A stretch of 64,000 nucleotides of DNA from Alphaproteobacteria bacterium (GTDB taxonomy: Bacteria; Pseudomonadota; Alphaproteobacteria; Ferrovibrionales; Ferrovibrionaceae), in NCBI GenBank assembly GCA_017307375.1, contig JAFKFH010000016.1, positions 1 through 64,000 of the forward strand, in the 5' to 3' direction. The notes below the pieces were generated by a model. It worked only from the letters and a program-made list of their open reading frames with translations, had not been told where the DNA came from and searched no databases. Every line of letters begins with the position of its first letter. Positions within the stretch are counted from its first letter, which is position 1. Positions 1 to 12,995 of this stretch are shown here, in pieces. Made by a program: the position numbers and the translations under genes.

Positions 1-399
1 GTCGATGCCGCGCGAGACCGAATCGGAGAACTCGCCCTTCATCAGATGCGGGATGCCGCAGGCGAACTCGACCACCTCCAGCCCGCGCTGGATCGAGCCC
101 TTGGCGTCCGAGACCACCTTGCCGTGCTCGCTGGAGAGCAGCACGGCCAACTCGTCCATATGCTTCTCGATCAGTTCCTTGAACTTGAACATCACCCGGG
201 CGCGCACCATCGGCGACTGCGCCGACCAGCCCGGGAACGCCGCCTGCGCGTCGGCGATCGCCGCCTCGACCTCGGCCCGCGTCGCCAGCGGCACCCGCGC
301 CTGCTCCTCGCCCGTCGACGGGTTGTAGACCGCGCCAGACCGATCCGAACTGCCGGAAACCGCCTTGCCGCCGATGATGTGGTGAATCTGCCTGGTCAT
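1..399 (-). CDS. mmsA: Methylmalonate-semialdehyde dehydrogenase (CoA-acylating), N-terminal part, runs off the window
   Basis: The visible 133 codons start MTRQIHHIIGGKAVSG and continue with VYNPSTGEEQARVPLA and a helix-rich NAD-binding aldehyde dehydrogenase N-terminus (KFKELIEKHMDELA, LLSSEHGKV). This is typical of MmsA, which oxidises methylmalonate or malonate semialdehyde to propionyl-CoA or acetyl-CoA in valine and inositol breakdown. The ATG is preceded by a strong GGAGG about eight bases upstream, which fixes the start. The catalytic Cys and the rest of the protein lie beyond the left edge, so the exact ALDH subfamily rests on the N-terminus only. Confidence 0.8.
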   Translation of the reverse strand, partial: MTRQIHHIIGGKAVSGSSDRSGAVYNPSTGEEQARVPLATRAEVEAAIADAQAAFPGWSAQSPMVRARVMFKFKELIEKHMDELAVLLSSEHGKVVSDAKGSIQRGLEVVEFACGIPHLMKGEFSDSVSRGID

Positions 400-527
400 G
401 TCCAATTCCTCCCGAACGAGGGCGGCAGGATGGCGCGCGCGCCACGGGGTTGCAACAGCGTTGGCAAAACCCGTCCGCCTCGTTTACTGATGCTCGGAGG
501 GAGATGGGCGGGACAGGACGGACCGAC

Positions 528-878
528 ATGATTACCGAAGTACGTCGGGTGGTTTTTTCCAAGGAAGCGCTGGTCGACATCCTCGAATTCGGCCGCAAGC
601 GCGGCAACCAGCGCCTGCCGCCCGGCCGTATCGAGGACGTGATGCTGGAAAACGCCGACGCGCCGCGGGTGACCGTCAAGGTCGACGTGCTCGGCGGCGG
701 CAAGTACCAGCTGGCGACGTTCCCGCAGGCCGAATTCGCCGCGATGATGATTCTCTACTGCAAGGCCAACAAGATCCCGCTGCCGCGCGCCTCGTCCAAG
801 TCGTTCGAGATCCAGGGCGATTCGCTCTGCCTCGTCGTCCGCCAGCAGCTCGATCGCGACATGCTGGCCGCCCGCTAG
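528..878 (+). CDS. Conserved hypothetical protein, 116 aa
   Basis: Small soluble protein starting MITEVRRVVFSKEALVD. It has no signal peptide or membrane segment. It reads as an alpha/beta fold: a helix that may bind RNA or protein (EFGRKRGNQRLPPGR), a beta-rich middle (VTVKVDVLGGGKYQ), then a helix with a single Cys (ILYCKANKIPLPR). I do not recognise the family. Regular codon use and conservation-like composition argue that it is real. An in-frame ATG at 504 has a GGAGG only three bases upstream and would add eight residues; I prefer 528 because the extra residues (MGGTGRTD) look non-conserved. The 3' end overlaps the convergent NmrA-like gene by four bases. Function unknown. Confidence 0.6.
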   Translation: MITEVRRVVFSKEALVDILEFGRKRGNQRLPPGRIEDVMLENADAPRVTVKVDVLGGGKYQLATFPQAEFAAMMILYCKANKIPLPRASSKSFEIQGDSLCLVVRQQLDRDMLAAR

Positions 879-1729
879 CGCCAGGCGCCGGCATTCTCGA
901 GGGCAAAATCGGCGAAATCGCGCGGCGGGCGCCCGGTCAGCCGCTCGACCTCGCCGGTCACGCGGGCGGCGGCCCCGGCCCGGACATACGCCGAAAGGCT
1001 GAGCAGCAGATCGATCGTCCAGTCGTCGATGCCGGCCGCCTTCATGCCGGCGCGGGCGTCGGCCGGCGCGACCGGATGATAGGTCACGGTCTCGCCGATC
1101 GCCGCCCCGATCATCGCGGCGACCTCGTCATGGGTGACCGCGCGCGGCCCGGTCAGGTCGTAGGCCCGGCCCAGATGGCGCGCGGGATCGGCCAGGATCG
1201 CGGTGGCCGCGGCGGCGATGTCGGCCACGTCGATCTGGCTGATCGCGCCGTCGGCCTCGGGCAGCCAGAAGGCGCGATGGCTGCGGATCGCCGCTCCCTG
1301 AAACGTGATCATGTTCTGCATGAAGCTGTTGGGGCGGATCACCGCATGCGGCAGACCGCTCTGCGCCAGCCGGCCGTCGAGCGCGGCCATCTGGCCGCCG
1401 AAGACATGCGCGTCCCCGGCGCCGAACGCCGACAGGCGCAGCACGAAGTCGACGCCCGCGACTTTGGCGGCGTTCAGCCCCGCCGCGACCTGGGTCGCCA
1501 TCGCCGGGACGAACGGGGTCAGCAGGAACAGCCGGTCGACCCCGGCCATCGCCTCGGCCATGCCGACCGGGTCGCCGAAATTGCACAGCCGGGTCTCGAC
1601 ATCGGCGGGGCCGGTCGCCTCCGGCCGGCTGATCCCGGCGACGACCGGCAGGCCGGCCGCCGCCAGGCTCGTCACCAGCGCGCGGCCCACCGTACCGCCG
1701 GAACCGGTCACCAGGATCCTGTCACCCAT
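875..1729 (-). CDS. NmrA-like NAD(P)-binding oxidoreductase (atypical SDR), 284 aa
   Basis: The N-terminus ILVTGSGGTVGRALV is a Rossmann glycine-rich loop of the GxxGxxG type, followed by GISRPEA, where atypical SDRs bind the NADP phosphate. The middle (AEAMAGVDRLFLLTPFV, HAVIRPNSFMQNM) matches the NmrA/QorB-type quinone reductase or redox-sensing group rather than classical SDRs: no YxxxK pair is obvious. Probable role is NAD(P)H-dependent reduction of a small quinone or aldehyde, or redox sensing; the substrate is not evident. It is transcribed alone, away from the suc operon. A CCTTAA-N7-TTAAGG dyad lies 26-44 bp upstream of its start. Confidence 0.75.
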   Translation of the reverse strand: MGDRILVTGSGGTVGRALVTSLAAAGLPVVAGISRPEATGPADVETRLCNFGDPVGMAEAMAGVDRLFLLTPFVPAMATQVAAGLNAAKVAGVDFVLRLSAFGAGDAHVFGGQMAALDGRLAQSGLPHAVIRPNSFMQNMITFQGAAIRSHRAFWLPEADGAISQIDVADIAAAATAILADPARHLGRAYDLTGPRAVTHDEVAAMIGAAIGETVTYHPVAPADARAGMKAAGIDDWTIDLLLSLSAYVRAGAAARVTGEVERLTGRPPRDFADFALENAGAWR

Positions 1730-1754
1730 TCTTCACACCTTCCGCCCGTATTTC

Positions 1755-1773
1755 CCTTAACCTCAGCTTAAGG
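1755..1773. promoter_or_regulatory. Inverted repeat CCTTAA-N7-TTAAGG upstream of the NmrA-like gene
   Basis: Six-base perfect arms at 1755-1760 and 1768-1773. The distance to the reductase start suits an operator or the promoter zone of that gene. The dyad is short, so chance is possible. Confidence 0.3.
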
Positions 1774-2019
1774 CTACGCCATTGGTTTCTATGGCACAGC
1801 CGGTTTTCGGTGCAGTGCGGCACGGGAAGGCTTGAAGCGGCCCGGGAAAGGGTTTACCTCCCTCCCGACCAGGCCGGCTCGAAGCTTCCAGGCCTTGAGC
1901 GGCGCAATCGGGAAAGGTGACATGGCGCGCAAGACTCTTGCGCCCGCTGGCAGCGGGCCGAACGATCCCGCCGCCCGCCACTCGTCATCCCGGCGCCCCG
2001 CCCTCGTGGCCGCCCCAGG

Positions 2020-2047
2020 TTGCCTCGCCCGCCGAGGGTGGTATAAC
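2020..2047 (+). promoter_or_regulatory. Candidate sigma-70 promoter of the suc operon
   Basis: TTGCCT at 2020-2025 (four of six matches to the -35 consensus) and TATAAC at 2042-2047 (five of six to the -10 consensus) with a 16-base spacer. Transcription would start near 2054, giving a leader of about 35 bases before sucC. It is the best promoter match in the intergenic region. Confidence 0.5.
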
Positions 2048-2088
2048 TCCAAGCGTTTCCTCCCGAAGGACCCCCCGAAGGACACCTG

Positions 2089-3252
2089 ATGAATATTCAT
2101 GAATATCAGGCGAAAAGCCTGCTCGCGAAATACGGTGTTGCGGTACCCCGTGGCGGCGCCGCGCTGACGGTCGACGAAGCGGTCAAGGCCGCGAAGGATC
2201 TCGGCGGGCCGGTCTGGGTGGTCAAGGCGCAGATCCATGCCGGCGGCCGCGGCAAGGCCGGCGGCGTCAAGGTCGTCAAGAGCATCGAGGACGTCGAGGC
2301 GACGGCCAAGAAGCTGCTCGGCACCACCCTCGTCACCCACCAGACGGGCCCGCAGGGCCGCGAAGTCGGCCGCCTCTATGTCGAGGAAGGCTGCGACATC
2401 GCCCGCGAGCTCTATCTCGGCATGCTGCTCGACCGCGCCACCTCGCGCGTCACCATCATGGCCTCGACCGAGGGCGGGATGGAGATCGAGGAAGTCGCCG
2501 CGGCGCACCCCGAGAAGATCCTGAAGGTTGCCATCGACCCGGCCTCGGGCCTGTCGGGCTTCCATTGCCGCCAGATCGCGTTCGGCCTGGGGCTGAAGGA
2601 CAAGCAGGTTTCGTCGGCGGTGAAGTTCATCACCGCGATGTACAACGCGTTCATCGCGCTGGACGCCTCGATCGTCGAGATCAACCCGCTGGTCGTCACC
2701 GGCGCCGGCGAGGTCATCGCGCTCGACGCCAAGATGAACTTCGACGACAACGCGCTCTACCGCCATCCCGAGGTCGAGGCGATGCGCGACCCGGCCGAGG
2801 AAGATCCGGCCGAGCTCGAGGCCGCCAAGCATGGCCTGAACTACGTCAAGCTCGACGGCACCATCGGCTGCATGGTCAACGGCGCGGGCCTGGCCATGGC
2901 CACCATGGACATCATCAAGCTCTACGGCGCGGAGCCGGCGAACTTCCTGGATGTCGGCGGCGGCGCCACGCGCGAGCGCGTGACCACCGCGTTCAAGCTG
3001 ATCCTGTCGGACCCGGCGGTGAACGGCATCCTGGTCAACATCTTCGGCGGCATCATGCGCTGCGACATCATCGCCGAGGGCATCATCGCCGCGGCGCGCG
3101 AAGTGTCGCTGGCGGTGCCGCTGGTCGTCCGCCTGGAAGGCACGAACGTCGAGCTGGGCAAGAAGATCCTGGCCGAGTCCGGCCTGCCGATCATTTCCGG
3201 CGACAACCTCGCCGATGCCGCCGAGAAGATCGTCAAGGCGGTCAAGGGCTGA
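2089..3252 (+). CDS. sucC: Succinyl-CoA synthetase (ADP-forming), beta subunit, 387 aa
   Basis: Full-length SucC: N-terminal ATP-grasp domain beginning [17 protein letters not shown] with the nucleotide-binding [16 protein letters not shown] segment (near residue 46), then the C-terminal CoA-ligase domain with [16 protein letters not shown]. With SucD it makes succinate and ATP from succinyl-CoA in the TCA cycle. Length matches the E. coli protein (388 aa). An AAGGA lies just before the ATG. It is the first gene of the sucCDAB-lpdA group. Many alphaproteobacteria have mdh directly upstream, but mdh is absent here. Confidence 0.97.
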
Positions 3253-3269
3253 GGGAAGGGACCAAATAG

Positions 3270-4145
<876 letters not shown>

Positions 4146-4157
4146 ACAATCTGAAGG

Positions 4158-4185
4158 ACGGCGGGTCGCAAGACCCGCCGTTTTT
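4158..4185 (+). terminator. Intrinsic terminator or attenuator between sucD and sucA
   Basis: Perfect 10-bp stem (4158-4167 with 4172-4181) closed by a GCAA tetraloop of the GNRA type and followed by a run of five T. It begins 12 bases after the sucD stop and ends five bases before the sucA ATG. This is a textbook rho-independent terminator placed inside what is otherwise one functional gene set. Confidence 0.85.
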
Positions 4186-4190
4186 GACAC

Positions 4191-7079
4191 ATGACCGCCC
4201 ATCTCGACCGTACGTCGTTCCTCTACCGCGCCAATGCCGGTCTCATCGAGGAGCTCTACGCTCGCTACCTGTCCGACCCGGCCTCCGTCGATGCGAGCTG
4301 GGCCCAGTTCTTCCAGGCGCTCGGCGACGAAGCCGCCACCATCACCGCCGAAAAGTCGGGCCCGTCCTGGGCCGCCCCGATCAACTGGGCGGCGTTCGAG
4401 GAAGCCGACCTGCTCGGCCCCACCGGCAAGGCGACGAAGTCGGCCGAGAAGGCGAAGGCTGCCGGCGCCAGCGATGTCGAGGTGCGTGCCGCCGCGCTCG
4501 ACACCATCCGCGCGGCGATGATGATCCGCGCCTATCGCATCCGCGGGCATCTGCAGGCCAATCTCGACCCGCTGGGCATCGAGAAGCCGGGCGTGCACCC
4601 GGAGCTCGACCCGAAGACCTACGGCTTCACCGACGCCGACATGGACCGGCCGATCTTCATCGATCGCATGCTGGGCCTGGAGACCGCCACGGTGCGCGAG
4701 ATCCTGGCGATCCTGCGCCGCACCTATTGCGGCACCATCGGCATCGAATTCATGCACATGTCCGACCCGGCCCAGAAGGCCTGGCTGCAGGAACGCATCG
4801 AGGGCCGCGAGAAGGAAGTCCACTTCACGCCCGAGGGCAAGCTCGCCATCCTCAAGAAGCTGACCGAGGCCGAGGGTTTCGAGCGCTTCTGCCACCTGAA
4901 ATACACCGGCACCAAGCGTTTCGGCCTGGAAGGCGGCGAGGCGCTGATCCCGGCGATGGAAGCGCTGATCAAGCGCGGCGGCCAGATGGGCGTGAAGGAG
5001 ATCGTGCTGGGCATGCCCCATCGCGGCCGCCTGAACGTGCTGGCCACCTTCATGGCCAAGCCCTACCGCGCGATCTTCTCGGAATTCCAGGGCAATGCCA
5101 CCACGCCCGACGACGTCTCGGGCTCGGGCGACGTCAAGTACCATCTCGGCACCTCGTCGGACCGCGAGTTCGACGGCAATGCCGTGCATCTGTCGCTCAC
5201 CGCCAACCCGTCGCATCTCGAGGCGGTCAACCCCGTCGTCAACGGCAAGGCCCGTGCCAAGCAGTCGCAGCTGCACGATACCGAGCGGCGCCAGGTGATG
5301 TCGGTGCTGCTGCATGGCGACGCGGCCTTCGCCGGCCAGGGCATCATCGCCGAATGCTTCGCGATGTCCGACCTGAAGGGCTATCGGGTCGGCGGCACCA
5401 TCCACATCATCGTCAACAACCAGATCGGTTTCACGACCAGCCCGAAGGCGTCGCGCAACTCGCCCTATCCGTCCGATGGCGCCAAGGGCCTGCAGACCCC
5501 GATCTTCCACGTCAACGGCGACGATCCGGAAGCCTGCGTCCACGTCGCCAAGATCGCGACCGAGTTCCGCCAGATCTTCGGCCGCGACGTCGTCATCGAC
5601 ATGTTCTGCTATCGCCGCCACGGCCATAACGAGACCGACGAGCCGGCGTTCACCCAGCCGCTGATGTACCGCGAGATCGCGCGCCACCAGACCACCCGCC
5701 AGCTCTACGCCCGGCGGCTGGTCGAGCAGGGCGTGATCGGCGAGGCCGATGCCGAGCGGATGATCGAGGACTACAACGCGCTGCTCGAGACCGAATTCCA
5801 GGCGACCCAGTCCTTCCGCCCGAACAAGGCGGACTGGCTGGAGGGCCGCTGGTCGGGCCTGTCGATCGCCGACGACAAGGACGACCGCCGCGGCAAGACC
5901 GACGTCTCGATGGAGGTGCTGAAGGAGATCGGCACCAAGCTCTATTCGGTCGAGCCCGAAGGCTTCAACCTGCATCGCACGCTCGGCCGCATCCGCGCCA
6001 AGCAGTTCAAGGCGATCGAGGACGGCGAGGGGCTGGAATGGGCCCAGGCCGAGGCGCTGGCCTTCGGCACGCTGCTGCTGGAAGGCTTCCCGGTGCGTCT
6101 CTCCGGCCAGGATGTCGGCCGCGGCACGTTCAGCCAGCGCCACGCGGTGCTGGTCGACCAGCAGTCGGAAGAGAAGTACGTCCCGCTCAATCACCTGCGC
6201 GACGGCCAGGCCCAGTTCGACGTCGTCGACTCGCTGCTTTCCGAACTGGCGGTGCTCGGCTTCGAATACGGCTACTCGCTGTCCGAGCCGCAGAGCCTCG
6301 TGCTGTGGGAAGCCCAGTTCGGCGACTTCGCCAACGGCGCCCAGGTGATCATCGACCAGTTCATCTCGTCGGCCGAATCGAAGTGGCAGCGCATGTCGGG
6401 CCTCGTCATGCTGCTGCCGCACGGCTACGAGGGCAACGGGCCGGAACATTCGTCGGCCCGCCTGGAGCGCTACCTCCAGCTCTCGGCCGAGGACAACTGG
6501 CAGGTCTGCAACCTGACGACCCCGGCGAACTACTTCCACGCCCTGCGCCGCCAGCTGCACCGCCCGTTCCGCAAGCCGCTGGTGATCATGACGCCGAAGT
6601 CGCTGCTGCGTCATCGCCTCGCGACCTCGACGCTGGCCGACATGGGCCCGGGCTCGACCTTCCATCGTGTCCTCTGGGACCTGAAGCAGGTCTGCCCGGA
6701 CGACAAGGTCAAGCGCGTCATCCTGTGCTCCGGCAAGGTCTATTACGACCTCTACGAGGAGCGCGAGAAGCGCGGCCTGAAGGACAGCTACATCCTCCGC
6801 ATCGAGCAGCTCTATCCCTTGCCGTTCAACGCGCTGACCAAGGAGCTGGCGCGCTTCAAGAACGCCAAGGAAGTGATCTGGTGCCAGGAGGAGCCCAAGA
6901 ACATGGGCGCCTGGTGGTTCATCGAATCGCGGCTGGAAAAGGTGATGAACGACGCCGGCATGAAGCCGAAGCGTCCGATCTATGCCGGCCGGCCCGAGGC
7001 GGCATCGCCTGCCACCGGTCTGAACAAGCGACACATGGCCGAACAAGCCAACCTGATCGAACACGCGTTGGTCGGCTAA
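4191..7079 (+). CDS. sucA: 2-oxoglutarate dehydrogenase E1 component, 962 aa
   Basis: Thiamine-diphosphate-dependent E1 of the 2-oxoglutarate dehydrogenase complex; it decarboxylates 2-oxoglutarate and succinylates the SucB lipoyl group. The N-terminus [19 protein letters not shown] is the conserved E1o helix. Further on are [18 protein letters not shown] (active-site loop), [11 protein letters not shown] with [10 protein letters not shown] (TPP/Mg site) and the C-terminal transketolase-like domain with [15 protein letters not shown]. An in-frame TGA two codons upstream makes ATG 4191 the earliest start. The preceding bases are TTTTTGACAC, with no Shine-Dalgarno sequence. Length is normal for alphaproteobacteria. 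Confidence 0.97.
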
Positions 7080-7098
7080 GGAAGAGGAAGATTTACCG

Positions 7099-8316
7099 AT
7101 GGCGGTAGAAATCAAGATCCCCGGTCTCGGCGATTCGGTGACCGAGGCGACCATCGCGAAATGGTTCAAGAAGGCCGGCGAGGCGGTTGCCGCCGACGAG
7201 CCGGTGCTGGAGCTCGAGACCGACAAGGTGACGATGGAGGTCAATGCGCCGGCTGCCGGCGTGCTGGCCGAGATCCTTGCCGATGACGGCGCCACCGTGC
7301 TGGTCGGCCAGGTCGTCGGCCAGATCGAGGCCGGCGGCGCGGCCGCCGCCCCGGCACCGAAGCCCGCCGCGCCTGCTGCCCCGGCTCCGGCGCCCGCGCC
7401 GGCCCCGGCTGCAGCGCCCGCCCCGGCCAAGGCCGCGGGCCAGGCCCTGCCGGCCGCCGCCAAGATGCTGGCCGAGAACAACCTGAGCGCAGGCGACGTG
7501 TCCGGCACCGGCAAGGACGGCCGGGTCACCAAGGGCGACGTCCTGGCGTTCCTGGAGAACCCGCCCGCCGCCGCTCCGGCACCGGCCGCGGCACCGGCCG
7601 CCCCGCGCAAGGAGGATCCGCGCGAGGAGCGGGTCAAGATGTCCAAGCTGCGCCGGGTGATCGCCACCCGCCTGAAGGAGGCGCAGAACACCGCGGCGAT
7701 GCTGACGACGTTCAACGAGGTCGACATGACCGCGCTGTTCGCCGCCCGCAAGACCTATGTCGAAGCCTTCGAGAAGAAGCACGGCGTGCGCCTCGGCTTC
7801 ATGTCGTTCTTCGTCAAGGCGGCCGTCGCGGCGCTGAAGGCGATTCCGGCGGTCAACGCCGAGATCGCCGGCGACGAGCTGATCTACAAGAACTACTACA
7901 ACATCGGCGTGGCGGTCTCGACCCCGACCGGCCTGATCGTGCCGGTGCTGCGCGATGCCGACCAGATGAGCTTTGCCGACGTCGAGAAGAAGATCGCCGA
8001 GCTGGGCAAGCGCGGCCGCGACGGCAAGATCTCGGTCGACGAGCTGCAGGGCGGCACCTTCACCATCTCGAACGGCGGCGTGTTCGGCTCGCTGCTCTCG
8101 ACCCCGATCCTCAACCCGCCGCAGTCCGGCATCCTCGGCATGCACAAGGTCCAGGACCGTCCGATGGCGGTGAACGGGCAGGTGGTGATCCGCCCGATGA
8201 TGTATCTGGCGCTTTCCTACGACCATCGCATCATCGACGGCCGCGAGGCCGTGACCTTCCTGGTCAAGCTGAAGGAAGGCATCGAGGATCCGCAGCGCCT
8301 GCTGTTCGATATCTGA
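7099..8316 (+). CDS. sucB: 2-oxoglutarate dehydrogenase E2, dihydrolipoyl succinyltransferase, 405 aa
   Basis: One lipoyl domain (residues 1-80, lipoylated Lys43 in ETDKVTM), an Ala/Pro-rich flexible linker, a peripheral-subunit-binding domain (about 112-150, [13 protein letters not shown]), a second Ala/Pro linker and the catalytic domain. The HxxxDG motif is SYDHRIIDG, with His376 and Asp380. It transfers succinyl to CoA at the core of the complex. It starts 20 bases after sucA with AAGGAAGAGGAAG upstream. Domain set and length are typical for SucB. Confidence 0.97.
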
Positions 8317-8339
8317 TCAACCGCCCGCAACGCGACCAT

Positions 8340-8391
8340 GGCGCCCCGCATCTGCCGCTCCTGACCCTTCAGGCCGGTGGAGCGGGGCGCC
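8340..8391 (+). other. Structured sucB-lpdA spacer with 10-bp inverted repeat
   Basis: GGCGCCCCGC (8340-8349) is perfectly repeated in inverted form at 8382-8391. Inside it lies a competing pairing (CCGCTCC with GGAGCGG) and a small CCTGA/TCAGG hairpin. There is no T-run, so it is not a standard terminator. It may be an mRNA processing or stability element that sets lpdA levels relative to sucAB. Confidence 0.4.
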
Positions 8392-8413
8392 GACATGACA
8401 TAGGAACCGAATC

Positions 8414-9823
8414 ATGGCCGAACAGCAATTCGACCTCGTCGTCATCGGCGCCGGCCCCGGCGGCTACGAAGGCGCGATCCGCGCCGCCCAGCTCGGCATG
8501 TCCGTCGCCGTCGTCGAGAAGCGCGGCGCCCTCGGCGGCACCTGCGTCACCGTCGGCTGCATCCCGTCCAAGGCGCTGCTGCAGTCTTCGGAACTGTATG
8601 AGGAAACCACCCACGCCCTGGCTGATCACGGCATCAAGGTGGCCAAGGTCGACTTCGATCTCGCCGCGATGATGGCCCGCAAGGACGCGGTGGTGAACTC
8701 GAACACCTCGGGCGTCGAATTCCTGTTCAAGAAGAACAAGATCACCTGGGTCAAGGGCACCGGCAAGCTGGCCGGCAACGGCCGGGTCGACGTCGCGCTG
8801 ACCGATGGCGGCGAACAGGTGCTGGCGGCGAAGAACATCCTGATCGCCACCGGGTCGGACGTCACCCGCCTGCCGGGCATCGAGATCGACGAGACCCAGA
8901 TCGTCTCCTCGACCGGCGCGCTGACCCTGCCCAAGGTGCCGAAGACGCTGGTCGTCATCGGCGGCGGTGTCATCGGCCTCGAACTCGGCACCGTCTGGCG
9001 CCGGCTGGGCGCCGAGGTCACCGTGATCGAATATCTCGACCGCATCCTGCCGACGATGGACGTCGATCTGGGCAAGAACACCCAGCGCGTGCTGGCCAAG
9101 CAGGGCATGAAGTTCAAGCTGGGCGCCAAGGTCACCGCGGCGAAGAAGTCGAAGTCGGGCGTCACCCTGACGGTCGAGCCGGCCAAGGGCGGCACGCCCG
9201 AGGAGATCACCGCCGATGTCGTGCTGGTCGCCATCGGCCGCGTCCCCTATACCGACGGCCTCGGCGCCAAGGAGATCGGCGTGGCGCTCGACGAGCGCGG
9301 CCGGGTCAGGATCGACGCGCATTTCCAGACCAACGTGCCGGGCATCTACGCGATCGGCGACGTCGTCGCCGGCGCCATGCTGGCCCACAAGGCGTCGGAA
9401 GAGGCGATCGCCTGCGTCGAGATGCTGGCCGGCCAGAAGCCGCATGTGAACTACGATGCCATTCCCGGCATCGTCTACACCTGGCCCGAGGTCGCCGCGG
9501 TCGGCAAGACCGAGGAGGAGCTGAAGGCTGCCGGCATCGACTACAAGGTCGGCAAGTTCCCGTTCTCGGCCAACGGCCGGGCGCGCGCCAACGGCGACAC
9601 CGACGGCTTCGTCAAGATCCTGGCCGATGCCAAGACCGACAAGGTGCTGGGCTGCCATATCCTCGGCCCCGATGCTGGCAACCTGATCCACGAGGCGGTC
9701 ATCGCCATCGAGTTCGGCGCGTCGTCCGAGGATCTGGCCCGTACCTGCCACGGCCATCCGACCTTGAACGAGGCGGTCAAGGAAGCGGCACTGGCGGTCG
9801 ACAAGCGCACCATCAATCTCTGA
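8414..9823 (+). CDS. lpdA: Dihydrolipoyl dehydrogenase (E3), 469 aa
   Basis: FAD-binding GAGPGGYEGAIRAAQ near residue 12, redox-active disulfide GGTCVTVGCIPSK (Cys44 and Cys49), a second Rossmann motif IGGGVIGLELGT for NAD, and the C-terminal dimerisation domain with the catalytic His448-Glu453 pair in HGHPTLNE. It reoxidises the lipoyl groups of the E2 subunit. As the last gene of the suc group it probably serves the 2-oxoglutarate complex first, and perhaps also pyruvate dehydrogenase or glycine cleavage. It is separated from sucB by a 97-base structured spacer. Confidence 0.97.
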   Translation: MAEQQFDLVVIGAGPGGYEGAIRAAQLGMSVAVVEKRGALGGTCVTVGCIPSKALLQSSELYEETTHALADHGIKVAKVDFDLAAMMARKDAVVNSNTSGVEFLFKKNKITWVKGTGKLAGNGRVDVALTDGGEQVLAAKNILIATGSDVTRLPGIEIDETQIVSSTGALTLPKVPKTLVVIGGGVIGLELGTVWRRLGAEVTVIEYLDRILPTMDVDLGKNTQRVLAKQGMKFKLGAKVTAAKKSKSGVTLTVEPAKGGTPEEITADVVLVAIGRVPYTDGLGAKEIGVALDERGRVRIDAHFQTNVPGIYAIGDVVAGAMLAHKASEEAIACVEMLAGQKPHVNYDAIPGIVYTWPEVAAVGKTEEELKAAGIDYKVGKFPFSANGRARANGDTDGFVKILADAKTDKVLGCHILGPDAGNLIHEAVIAIEFGASSEDLARTCHGHPTLNEAVKEAALAVDKRTINL

Positions 9824-9844
9824 TCCGGCGGCGGATTTCGGTTC

Positions 9845-10345
9845 ATGGGCCTGTTCACCGAAATCCGCATCGGCGAACCTCTGCCCAACGTCCAGGTGGC
9901 CGAGCTGGTCGGCGGTGACGTCTCCACCGTCGACCTGCAGGCCTTCTGCGGCAACCGCAACCTCGTCGTGATCGGCGTGCCCGGCGCCTTCATGCCGTCC
10001 TGCACCCGGCTGCATCTGCCCGACTTCGTGCGCAAGGCGCCGGCCCTGAAGGCTGCGGGCATCGACGACATCGTCTGCATCGCGCCGACCAACCCCTGGG
10101 CGCTCGCCGCCTGGGCCGAGCGGCTGGACCCGGAACGCCATCTGCGGTTCCTGTCGGACGGCAACCTCGAATTCGCGACACGCACCGGGCTGACCTTGCG
10201 CGACGATGCCAACTTCGTCGGCCGGACGATGCGGCGCTTCCTGATGCGCATCGCCAACTGCACGGTACGGCGGCTGACGGTCGAGGACGACGTCCTTGCG
10301 GTCACCTGTACCCGCGCCGACGACGTGGTGGTCGGCGTCGGTTAG
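9845..10345 (+). CDS. Peroxiredoxin-5-like redoxin with altered active-site motif, 166 aa
   Basis: Belongs to the Prx5/AhpE-like redoxin fold: GEPLPNVQV at the start, VPGAFMPSCTRLHLPDF around the peroxidatic cysteine and RRFLMRIANCTVRRLTVED near the end. The usual motif P-x3-(T/S)-x2-C is PGAFTPTC in Prx5. Here it is PGAFMPSC: Pro46 and Cys53 are kept, but the catalytic Thr/Ser is Met50. Extra cysteines at 35 and near the C-terminus could form a disulfide. It lies 21 bases after lpdA and may be co-transcribed. Peroxidase activity is likely but uncertain given the substitution. Confidence 0.8.
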   Translation: MGLFTEIRIGEPLPNVQVAELVGGDVSTVDLQAFCGNRNLVVIGVPGAFMPSCTRLHLPDFVRKAPALKAAGIDDIVCIAPTNPWALAAWAERLDPERHLRFLSDGNLEFATRTGLTLRDDANFVGRTMRRFLMRIANCTVRRLTVEDDVLAVTCTRADDVVVGVG

Positions 10346-11244
10346 GGCTGTCCGCCCGCGAAAGCGGCGAGATCGGCATTGAACCGGTCGACATGGGTCA
10401 AGAACAGGCCGTGCGGTGCGCCCTGATAGACCTTGATCTGCGCGCCCGGGATCAGCCCGGTGGTGCGGATACCCGTCAGCGGCAGCGGGGCCGATGCGTC
10501 GCGATCGCCCTGGATGACCAGGCTGGGGACCGCCAATGACTGCAGTTCGGTGCGGAAGTCGGTTTCGACCATCGCCCTGTTGCACTCGATCACCGCCTTC
10601 ATCGAGCATTGCAGCATCAGCCCGCGCCCCCAATCCAGCATCGGTTCGGGGGTCTCCGGCATGAAGAACGGGCGCGCATTGTTCGCCAGCCACGTCGGGT
10701 AGTCATGGCGCCAGACATGGCGCAGCCCCTCGAACATCTGCCGGTCGATGCCGTCGGGATTGTCGGCCGTCTTCAGCAGGAACGGCAGGGTCGGCGCCAG
10801 GAATAGCACCCTGGCAACGCGGCGCTGCCGCCCATGGCGGGTCAGGTAGCGCACCGCCTCGCCGCCGGCCATCGAATGGGCGACCAGCGTGACGCCGGCG
10901 AGGTCGAGGCTGTCCAGCACGGCGGCGAGATCGTCGGCCAGGGTATCGTAATCGTAGTTGCGCCCCGGATCGTCCGAACGGCCATGGCCGCGCCGGTCAT
11001 AGGCGACGGTGCGGAACCCTCGCTCGCTCAACGCCAGCATCTGGTAGCACCAGCAGTCGCTCGGCAAGGCCCAGCCTGCGAGGAAGACAATCGGCCTGCC
11101 TTCGCCCCAGTCGCGATGGAACAGGTGTACACCGTCGGTGCCGGTGATCCGCGTCGGTGATGTCGCCCGGGCAGGCGTCGCCGGATAGGCGGTACCAGCT
11201 GTCGCCGCCAGGGCAATGCCCGCAAAAACCTGACGCCTGTCCAT
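10342..11244 (-). CDS. Exported alpha/beta hydrolase (chloroperoxidase/esterase-like), 300 aa
   Basis: ATG 11244 has GGAGGAAAA upstream and starts MDRRQVFAGIALAATAG, a twin-arginine-like signal ending near PARA (residue 27), so export by Tat is likely. The alpha/beta-hydrolase core follows: oxyanion strand IVFLAGWAL, YDRRGHGRSD, nucleophile Ser124 in VAHSMAGGE, acid Asp in GDRDASAP and His in GAPHGLFLTH. Both glycines of the usual GxSxG elbow are Ala (AHSMA). The family includes cofactor-free haloperoxidases and esterases; the substrate is unknown. The 3' end overlaps the peroxiredoxin gene by four bases. Confidence 0.75.
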   Translation of the reverse strand: MDRRQVFAGIALAATAGTAYPATPARATSPTRITGTDGVHLFHRDWGEGRPIVFLAGWALPSDCWCYQMLALSERGFRTVAYDRRGHGRSDDPGRNYDYDTLADDLAAVLDSLDLAGVTLVAHSMAGGEAVRYLTRHGRQRRVARVLFLAPTLPFLLKTADNPDGIDRQMFEGLRHVWRHDYPTWLANNARPFFMPETPEPMLDWGRGLMLQCSMKAVIECNRAMVETDFRTELQSLAVPSLVIQGDRDASAPLPLTGIRTTGLIPGAQIKVYQGAPHGLFLTHVDRFNADLAAFAGGQP

Positions 11245-11402
11245 GGGATTTTCCTCCGCCGTCGGAAACGATGCACCTTGATAGCGAGGGGTGATCGTCC
11301 CGGTCGATAACCCGGCAGGTAAAGTCACCACCGGCCATCGCAAAATCCTGCGAACGTCGCTATGGTCGGGGCAGAGTTTGTTTTGGGGGGAATCGTTCAG
11401 CC

Positions 11403-12995
11403 ATGGCTGACGCAACGGGGCGGCAGGTCGGGGCCGTCGGCCTGACCTTGACCGGCATCGGCACCATCATCGGTTCAGGCTGGCTGTTCGGGGCGGCCCA
11501 TGCCGCCGAGCAGGCCGGACCGGCGGCGATCTTCTCCTGGATCATCGGCGCCTTCATCATCGGGCTGATCGCGCTGACCCTGGCCGAGATCGGGCCGATG
11601 TTCCCGGACATGGGCGGGCTGGGGCGCTATTCGCAATATACCCATGGCGGGCTGACCGCCTTCATCGGCGACTGGGCCTGTTTCATCGGCTTCGTCTCGT
11701 CGATCCCGTCCGAGGCATCGGCGTCGGTGCAGTATGCCTCGTCCTGGGACTATCCCTGGGCCAAGGCGCTGTTCGACGACCGGACCCAGACGATGTCGAC
11801 GACCGGGCTGCTGGCCGCCTCGGCCTTGTGCATTGTCTACTTCTTCCTCAATTACTTCTCGCTGCAGATGTTCCTGCGCGCGATCAAGTCGCTGACGCTG
11901 TTCAAGATCGCAATCCCGGTCCTGACCATCGTCGTGCTGATCTGGACCGGCTGGAATCCGGACAATTTTCATTCCGTCGGCGGTTCGATCGCACCCTATG
12001 GCTGGGCCGGGGTGCTGACCGCGATCACCACTGCCGGCATCGTCTACGCCTATAACGGCTTCCAGGTGCCGATCAATTTCGCCGGCGAGGCGCATAACCC
12101 ACGGGTGTCGGTGCCCGTCGCGGTGCTGGGGTCGCTGTTCTTCTGCATGTTGCTCTATCTCGGCCTGCAGGTCGCCTTCATCGGGGCGATGCCCGCCGAC
12201 CTGCTGAAGGGCGGCTGGTCGGCGCTGTCGATGCGCTCGCCGTTCGGCGAGCTGGCCGTGGCGCTGGGGGTGGGGCTGGTCGCGCAGTTGCTCTACGTCG
12301 ATTCGGTCGTCTCGCCTTCCGGCTCCGGCATCATCTATGTCGGCGCCTCGGCCCGCATGCTGTTTGGCATGGAGCGGGACGGTCACATGCCTGCCGTGGT
12401 CGGCCGGCTCGATGCCCGGACCTTGCTGCCGCGCCCGGCGATGTGGGTGGTGCTGGTGCTGGCGATCGCCAGCCTGTGGATGTTCCCGAGTTGGGACGAG
12501 CTTGCCGCGATCATCTCGGTCGGCTACGTGATTTCCTATCTTTGTCCCACCACCGCGGTCGGCACGCTGCGCCGGATTGCACCGCAGATCGAACGCCCGC
12601 TGCATATCCGCGGCATGTCGGTCATCGCCCCGGCGGCCTTCGTCGCCTCGTCGTTCCTGCTCTACTGGTCGCGCTGGCCGCTGACCGGACAGATCCTGTT
12701 CATGATCGCCGGCGGCCTGCTGATCTACCTGTTCTACGAATGGCGCCGCGGTTTTCAGGGCTTCGCCGTCCAGCTGCGCGGGGCCGCCTGGCTGATCTGC
12801 TACATGCCGGCGATGGCCCTCGTCTCCTATCTCGGCTCGCCGGTGTTTGGCGGAATCGGCCTGTTGCCGCTCGGCGTCGACCAGGCGGTGGTCGCGGTGG
12901 TGTCGCTCGGATTCTATTTCTGGGCGCTGCGGGCGGGGTGGCGCACCCCGGCGATCGACGCCCGGCTGATCGAGGTCACCGCCGCACGGGGTTGA
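11403..12995 (+). CDS. APC-superfamily amino acid/amine permease, 530 aa
   Basis: About twelve hydrophobic segments starting with LTLTGIGTIIGSGWLFGA, the TM1 glycine-rich break that binds the substrate amino group in APC transporters. TM2 contains ALTLAEIGPMFPDMGGLGRY, also typical. Probable proton-coupled importer of an amino acid or amine at the inner membrane; specificity cannot be read. A GGGGGGA stretch precedes the ATG. It is divergent from the exported hydrolase across 158 bp. Its 3' end runs 20 bases into the convergent UPF0126 gene. Confidence 0.85.
   Translation: MADATGRQVGAVGLTLTGIGTIIGSGWLFGAAHAAEQAGPAAIFSWIIGAFIIGLIALTLAEIGPMFPDMGGLGRYSQYTHGGLTAFIGDWACFIGFVSSIPSEASASVQYASSWDYPWAKALFDDRTQTMSTTGLLAASALCIVYFFLNYFSLQMFLRAIKSLTLFKIAIPVLTIVVLIWTGWNPDNFHSVGGSIAPYGWAGVLTAITTAGIVYAYNGFQVPINFAGEAHNPRVSVPVAVLGSLFFCMLLYLGLQVAFIGAMPADLLKGGWSALSMRSPFGELAVALGVGLVAQLLYVDSVVSPSGSGIIYVGASARMLFGMERDGHMPAVVGRLDARTLLPRPAMWVVLVLAIASLWMFPSWDELAAIISVGYVISYLCPTTAVGTLRRIAPQIERPLHIRGMSVIAPAAFVASSFLLYWSRWPLTGQILFMIAGGLLIYLFYEWRRGFQGFAVQLRGAAWLICYMPAMALVSYLGSPVFGGIGLLPLGVDQAVVAVVSLGFYFWALRAGWRTPAIDARLIEVTAARG

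Follow-up and report, generated by a model that had tools for sequence, protein, structure and literature searches.

Organization of the sucD-sucA junction

The window is a stretch of 64,000 nucleotides from a 7.5 Mb alphaproteobacterial genome. It encodes SucC, SucD, SucA, SucB and Lpd, all of which match NCBIfam models above the cut-offs (with names including succinate-CoA ligase alpha and 2-oxoglutarate dehydrogenase E1). The sucD open reading frame (3270–4145; NCBIfam NF004230 equivalog, E 8.9e-144), coding for the succinate-CoA ligase alpha subunit, lies upstream of sucA (4191–7079; NCBIfam NF006914 and TIGR00239 equivalogs, Pfam PF16078), coding for 2-oxoglutarate dehydrogenase E1, and both are on the forward strand, as are all features of the junction. 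These equivalog matches agree with the gene names that an earlier sequence-only reading had given to the junction. The E1o N-terminal domain (Pfam 2-oxogl_dehyd_N, PF16078) starts at residue 8 of the sucA open reading frame, so the ATG at 4191 is a credible start and a wrongly assigned start codon can be dismissed.

The sucD stop codon (4143–4145) is followed by ACAATCT and then by the Shine-Dalgarno (SD) sequence GAAGGA (4153–4158), whose predicted duplex with the anti-SD CCUCCUUU is worth −5.0 kcal/mol alone and −5.8 kcal/mol in context, the anti-SD letters being those that we assume for this species rather than letters taken from its own 16S rRNA. The SD stands at the 5′ foot of a hairpin with a perfect 10 bp stem (ACGGCGGGTC/GACCCGCCGT; 4158–4167 and 4172–4181) and a GCAA tetraloop of the GNRA type (4168–4171). 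A4158 is shared, being both the last base of the SD and the outermost base of the stem. The predicted fold is −25.8 kcal/mol, compared with −10.7±2.6 kcal/mol for shuffled sequences (z = −5.94; none of 200 as good). A 9-nt linker (TTTTGACAC, 4182–4190) leads from the stem to the ATG. Five T residues occupy 4181–4185, the first of them being the outermost paired base of the 10 bp stem, and these are followed by GACAC and the ATG at 4191.

The sequence-only reading had described a 10 bp hairpin with a GNRA loop, five T ending five bases before the ATG, and no space for an SD between the hairpin and the ATG, and it is correct on all three points; no SD fits in the linker 3′ of the hairpin, where the anti-SD duplex is +0.7 kcal/mol. 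It also stated that sucA has no ribosome binding site, which is wrong if the hairpin is bridged because GAAGGA, which was overlooked, adjoins the 5′ foot. The spacing from this SD to the ATG is 30 nt as a raw (aligned) measure and 8 nt with the hairpin left out.

Recurrence of the arrangement at sucA

Junctions between sucD and sucA were drawn from family, class and named genomes. The window genome is the sole member of its genus in the comparison set, which holds 17 other genomes of its family, and one relative set consists of 80 loci from a larger set. For 335 genomes with a SucD match, the first-given loci and 80 next-best listed places were read and about 225 genomes were left out, a draw that is biased towards SucD-like relatives. 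Rows were excluded if sucA was out of reach, if the gap was above 600 nt or below 20 nt, or if the junction was identical to another; the 201 records contain 171 with sucA, 160 of them distinct and 155 with a gap of at least 20 nt. The detection thresholds were chosen once the junctions had been inspected, and the controls were then scored with the same values.

The order of SD, GC-rich hairpin, approximately 10 nt and ATG is present at sucA in 53 of the 155 distinct junctions of related bacteria, compared with 2.55±1.24 matches (maximum 5; 20 rounds) in dinucleotide shuffles of the same stretches. At the same loci the arrangement precedes none of 102 sucC starts and none of 117 sucD starts but 52 of 156 sucA starts. 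The window is not a positive in the counts of 53/155 and 52/156, because the untrimmed finder took the pairing of AAGG with UUUU at the foot of the hairpin into the stem; it is recovered by trimming outer A-T and G-T pairs. Trimming the weak outer pairs and including further genomes, mainly from one family, gives 72 positive junctions out of 172, with that family supplying 22 of the 72. Counted by coded family, the arrangement is found in 20 of 42.

The element is present in every sampled row of 16 of the 20 positive families, several of which are represented by a single row. Of 15 tree rows from the window's own family, 14 are positive by the finder, and inspection by eye shows that the negative one (L099) also carries an SD followed by a bulged stem. 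All species of one other family whose junction can be read have the hairpin (22/22); a further match in that family (L265) has no readable sucA. It is absent from the named loci of Pelagibacterales (11/11 rows), Sphingomonadales (12/12) and Hyphomicrobiales (12/13). Twenty extra loci, outside the counts of 155 and 172, include five with the arrangement at an SD duplex of −4 kcal/mol or better, a sixth with a hairpin in the slot and a weaker SD, and 14 with neither. The sequence-only reading had named conservation of the hairpin in relatives as a check; conservation holds for the structure and its placement, the SD–hairpin–~10 nt–ATG order being shared by many relatives, and does not hold for the stem sequence or the T-run, which are not common to them.

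Two groups of long junctions may be noted. Three loci of one coded family (L105, L114 and L116) have sucD-sucA gaps of 353–453 nt, and the hairpin is still located 11–12 nt before the ATG. Three Sphingomonas loci (L040, L044 and L035) have gaps of 147–159 nt that contain a highly stable long fold (−97 to −110 kcal/mol) unlike the element.

Mapped on a SucD-SucA tree of 164 rows, 59 of which carry it, the element is clustered: at least 23 changes are required, compared with 48.4 for shuffled labels (none of 500 as low), and 11 of the 23 changes are forced by well-supported branches; it is a quick tree, in which gain and loss are indistinguishable. A scan of approximately 460 kb from the window's genome covered 230 called genes preceded by a gap of at least 20 nt. 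A loose rule for the arrangement picks out 8 of them, and the stem reaches −20 kcal/mol or better in just two, sucA and a TetR-family gene. In 400 kb of a relative (G014) the count at this stem strength is 2 of 177 genes, sucA being one of them; genes were called by a simple codon-usage script. The TetR-family gene provides another clear example in the window's genome (L216:18239–18281; G000:C5:238239–238281), with a GAGGAGG SD, a 12 bp hairpin, 6 nt and an ATG. Its product has a Pfam TetR_N domain, and its top NCBIfam match is a FadR model, below the cut-off.

Spacing and stem variation

In the 72 junctions the raw SD–ATG spacing is 29.7±4.3 nt (range 21–44), and with the hairpin left out it is 8.5±1.9 nt, with little relation to hairpin length (r = 0.10). 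Because 22 of the 72 positives belong to one family, values were also averaged by family or named locus; the resulting 25 groups have a raw spacing of 29.2±5.5 nt, an effective spacing of 7.9±2.1 nt, and r = 0.29. Ordinary SD spacing is 6.9±1.5 nt at sucD (94/117; 3–11 nt) and 6.0±2.6 nt at sucC (43/102; 2–12 nt), values that are bounded because these SDs were sought no more than 22 nt from the ATG. The raw distances at sucA fall outside both ranges, and the effective spacing is 1–2 nt longer than that of sucD.

The hairpin lies 10.1±1.6 nt from the ATG, the finder having accepted distances of 5–14 nt, and 66±76 nt (13–424) from the sucD stop. The strongest untrimmed hairpins, sought across 75 nt, also cluster 8–12 nt from the ATG, and those of shuffled sequences are flat. 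Pairing with the anti-SD averages −6.7 kcal/mol on the 5′ side of the hairpin and −1.1 kcal/mol in the linker; the linker has no SD in 65 of the 72 junctions, and in the other 7 (6 of the 25 groups) it has an SD as well.

The stems remain paired as their sequences change, as seen in the number of distinct stems, in an arm-swap control and in pair changes within a family. There are 48 distinct stems. When a 5′ arm is matched with the 3′ arm of another junction, 54% of positions pair, compared with 100% for a stem's own arms, and 2.7% of swaps are fully paired. The finder itself requires complementarity, and the real control is therefore the absence of the arrangement from sucC, sucD and shuffles. 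In the 22-species family one pair is seen as AT, GT, CG, GC and TA and another as CG and TA, with a nearly invariant lower stem; these pairs were counted from the stem base by script because MAFFT alignment misplaces the 3′ arm of the elements.

A proposed hairpin-bridged ribosome binding site

We propose that initiation of sucA in the window uses a hairpin-bridged (split) ribosome binding site, a reading to which we give a probability of roughly 0.7. The type would most likely be that of T4 genes 25 and 38, and it would recur at sucA across many Alphaproteobacteria. The hairpin probably serves to fold away surplus distance between the SD and the ATG, and not mainly as a transcription stop signal, because the order of SD, hairpin and start is kept in many relatives despite differing hairpin sequences. 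The anti-SD of the 30S subunit would pair with GAAGGA (4153–4158) while the hairpin (4158–4181) remained folded and bulged from the mRNA path. This would place the SD approximately 8 nt from the ATG instead of approximately 30, so that the ATG could reach the P site with the hairpin held out and ribosomes could start sucA on its own SD. If the folded hairpin is bridged in this way, SucA output would be independent of ribosomes arriving from sucD. As expected of a T4-type site, the linear SD–AUG distance is too long, the spacing without the structure is in the functional range, and the pairing persists through sequence change.

Of the three routes to sucA expression that the sequence-only reading had listed, namely read-through, a promoter in sucD and unusual initiation, it is the last that the comparative evidence favors. 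A promoter in sucD gains nothing from a sigma-70 scan, which found no promoter-like site within that gene (weak evidence, covering one promoter type); the sole sigma-70-like match in positions 1–12000 is inside sucA at 4498, with 0.9 expected in shuffles.

Bridging is not a general requirement of sucA, since 100 of the 172 junctions lack the element. A normal SD is present in 49 of these 100, and among the 77 GC-rich junctions without the element 32 have neither the element nor a normal SD. The arrangement is also missing from four sampled sucA genes (L267, L268, L271 and L272) located away from the listed sucD, either on another contig or approximately 140 kb from it, and the element may therefore belong to the sucD-sucA junction rather than to sucA as such; these cases are few, L267 and L268 are of one genus, and the genome of L272 contains another sucD match, which may or may not adjoin sucA. 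Further points against bridging are the effective spacing slightly above that of sucD, the linker SDs in 7 of the 72 junctions, the predicted pairing of the window SD with UUUU, and the choice of thresholds after inspection of the junctions.

Alternative roles of the hairpin

The hairpin could instead be a regulated mask that holds the SD in or near a helix and limits sucA translation until a change in temperature, a protein or a metabolite releases it, an alternative that we consider unlikely. The latch in the window would be the pairing of AAGG (4154–4157) with UUUU (4182–4185), which can extend the stem by −3.8 kcal/mol and has a predicted probability of 0.85–0.99. In the folding model this would hide the window SD unless the ribosome opens the pairing, and the extension is small enough to be about balanced by the SD duplex (~−5 kcal/mol); the pairing may lower or modulate initiation, or it may be harmless. 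Masking is also consistent with the 22-species family, in which the G-run of the SD continues into the stem. Elsewhere the relation is loose: the 5′ purines of the SD are outside the stem in many relatives (uncounted), and pairing of the SD flank ranges from near 0 to 1.0 among 13 folded relatives. Loop and stem sequences differ from family to family, a pattern that speaks against recognition by a sequence-specific binder and against an aptamer, and the window and 20 relatives have no Rfam match.

Hairpins between cistrons can protect 3′ ends, and the element might accordingly stabilize the sucCD 3′ end, or it might adjust the ratio of SucCD to SucAB as a site of RNase III/E processing. Its absence from the four non-adjoining sucA genes is in keeping with such a role, which is nonetheless quite unlikely given that the hairpin is fixed with respect to the ATG (standard deviation 1.6 nt) and not to the sucD stop (76 nt), from which 11 of the 72 hairpins are more than 100 nt away, and that an SD stands at its 5′ foot with no SD in 65 of 72 linkers.

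The third alternative is an intrinsic terminator or attenuator, in which the GC-rich stem and T5 would end many sucCD transcripts before sucA. In the window genome five T come after a highly stable stem, which gives the site this appearance, and the sequence-only reading took it for a strong terminator, a view that fails on conservation and is very unlikely to be correct. A T-run follows the stem in 2 of the 72 element junctions (the window and L150), and in a 14-row alignment of the window's own family no other row has a run of four T at this position; the T-run is part of a linker of narrowly kept length, and the hairpin keeps its place relative to the ATG, not the sucD stop. By eye the window has either a 10 bp stem and four T or a 9 bp stem and five T, and the terminator scan did not report the site because its rule needs five T after the stem and one T sits in the stem. 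Termination as a conserved function can be rejected, as the T-run follows the stem in so few junctions; partial termination at T5 in the window species alone is possible.

Relation to known systems and implications

The hairpin-bridged reading has its closest parallels in phage T4, as described in a review (PMC3014915). At the gene 26-25 intercistronic junction a structure between the SD and AUG of gene 25 cuts the spacing from 27 to 11 nt, accommodation having been demonstrated by reporter and DMS probing, and the structure is present in close T-even phages and missing from more distant ones; RNA structure in the gene 38 leader reduces the spacing from 22 to 5 nt, and destabilizing mutations in the T4 split sites lower initiation (PMC3014915). 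Gene 25 resembles sucA in having an intercistronic structure between SD and AUG that shortens the spacing, and differs in being a phage gene known from experiment, whereas sucA is a chromosomal TCA-cycle gene for which the arrangement is known by comparison alone, with unrelated stems in 20 coded families; gene 38 shares the structure-shortened spacing but is likewise of phage origin, with another gene and sequence. In E. coli thrS the hairpin lies upstream of the SD/AUG domain, unlike the window hairpin, which is between SD and AUG. According to PMC3936740, the ribosome can take in a long hairpin at the thrS split site and leave it folded.

Two structured RNAs are named after sucA: RF01070 of Burkholderiales, termed a probable or predicted riboswitch in PMC4603805 and PMC3766115, and sucA-II (RF01758) of Pseudomonadales, listed in a table of PMC2864571. 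These are longer models (83 and 217 positions) and do not match the window. Rfam 15 covariance models at the gathering score gave no match in the window or in 20 relatives, and RF01070, RF01758 and other known Rfam families can be set aside there at that score; a lax search of 4000–4400 gave one chance-level match, elsewhere in the stretch. RF01070 matched 0 of 1 genomes (the window's own) and RF01758 0 of 143, results that are weak alone because control genomes also gave no match. Among the matches listed in a search of open-licence literature there was no bacterial sucA case and no survey of the SD–hairpin–AUG arrangement. To our knowledge, this arrangement has been demonstrated experimentally only in phage T4.

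Rules for SD–AUG spacing are usually applied to linear RNA, and bridged sites can therefore be misread as lacking an SD or as terminators, as occurred in the sequence-only reading. A gene-specific bridged site that occurs in 20 coded families and varies in nature through dozens of stems and linker lengths would provide a natural data set on how the 30S subunit holds a folded hairpin. It is rather doubtful, if conceivable, that this chromosomal class of ribosome binding site, deeply kept in many alphaproteobacterial families, combines with the competing U-tract of the window to form a tunable toggle for 2-oxoglutarate dehydrogenase. The hairpin-bridged site also points to translation of SucA starting from a signal of its own inside the sucCDAB operon.
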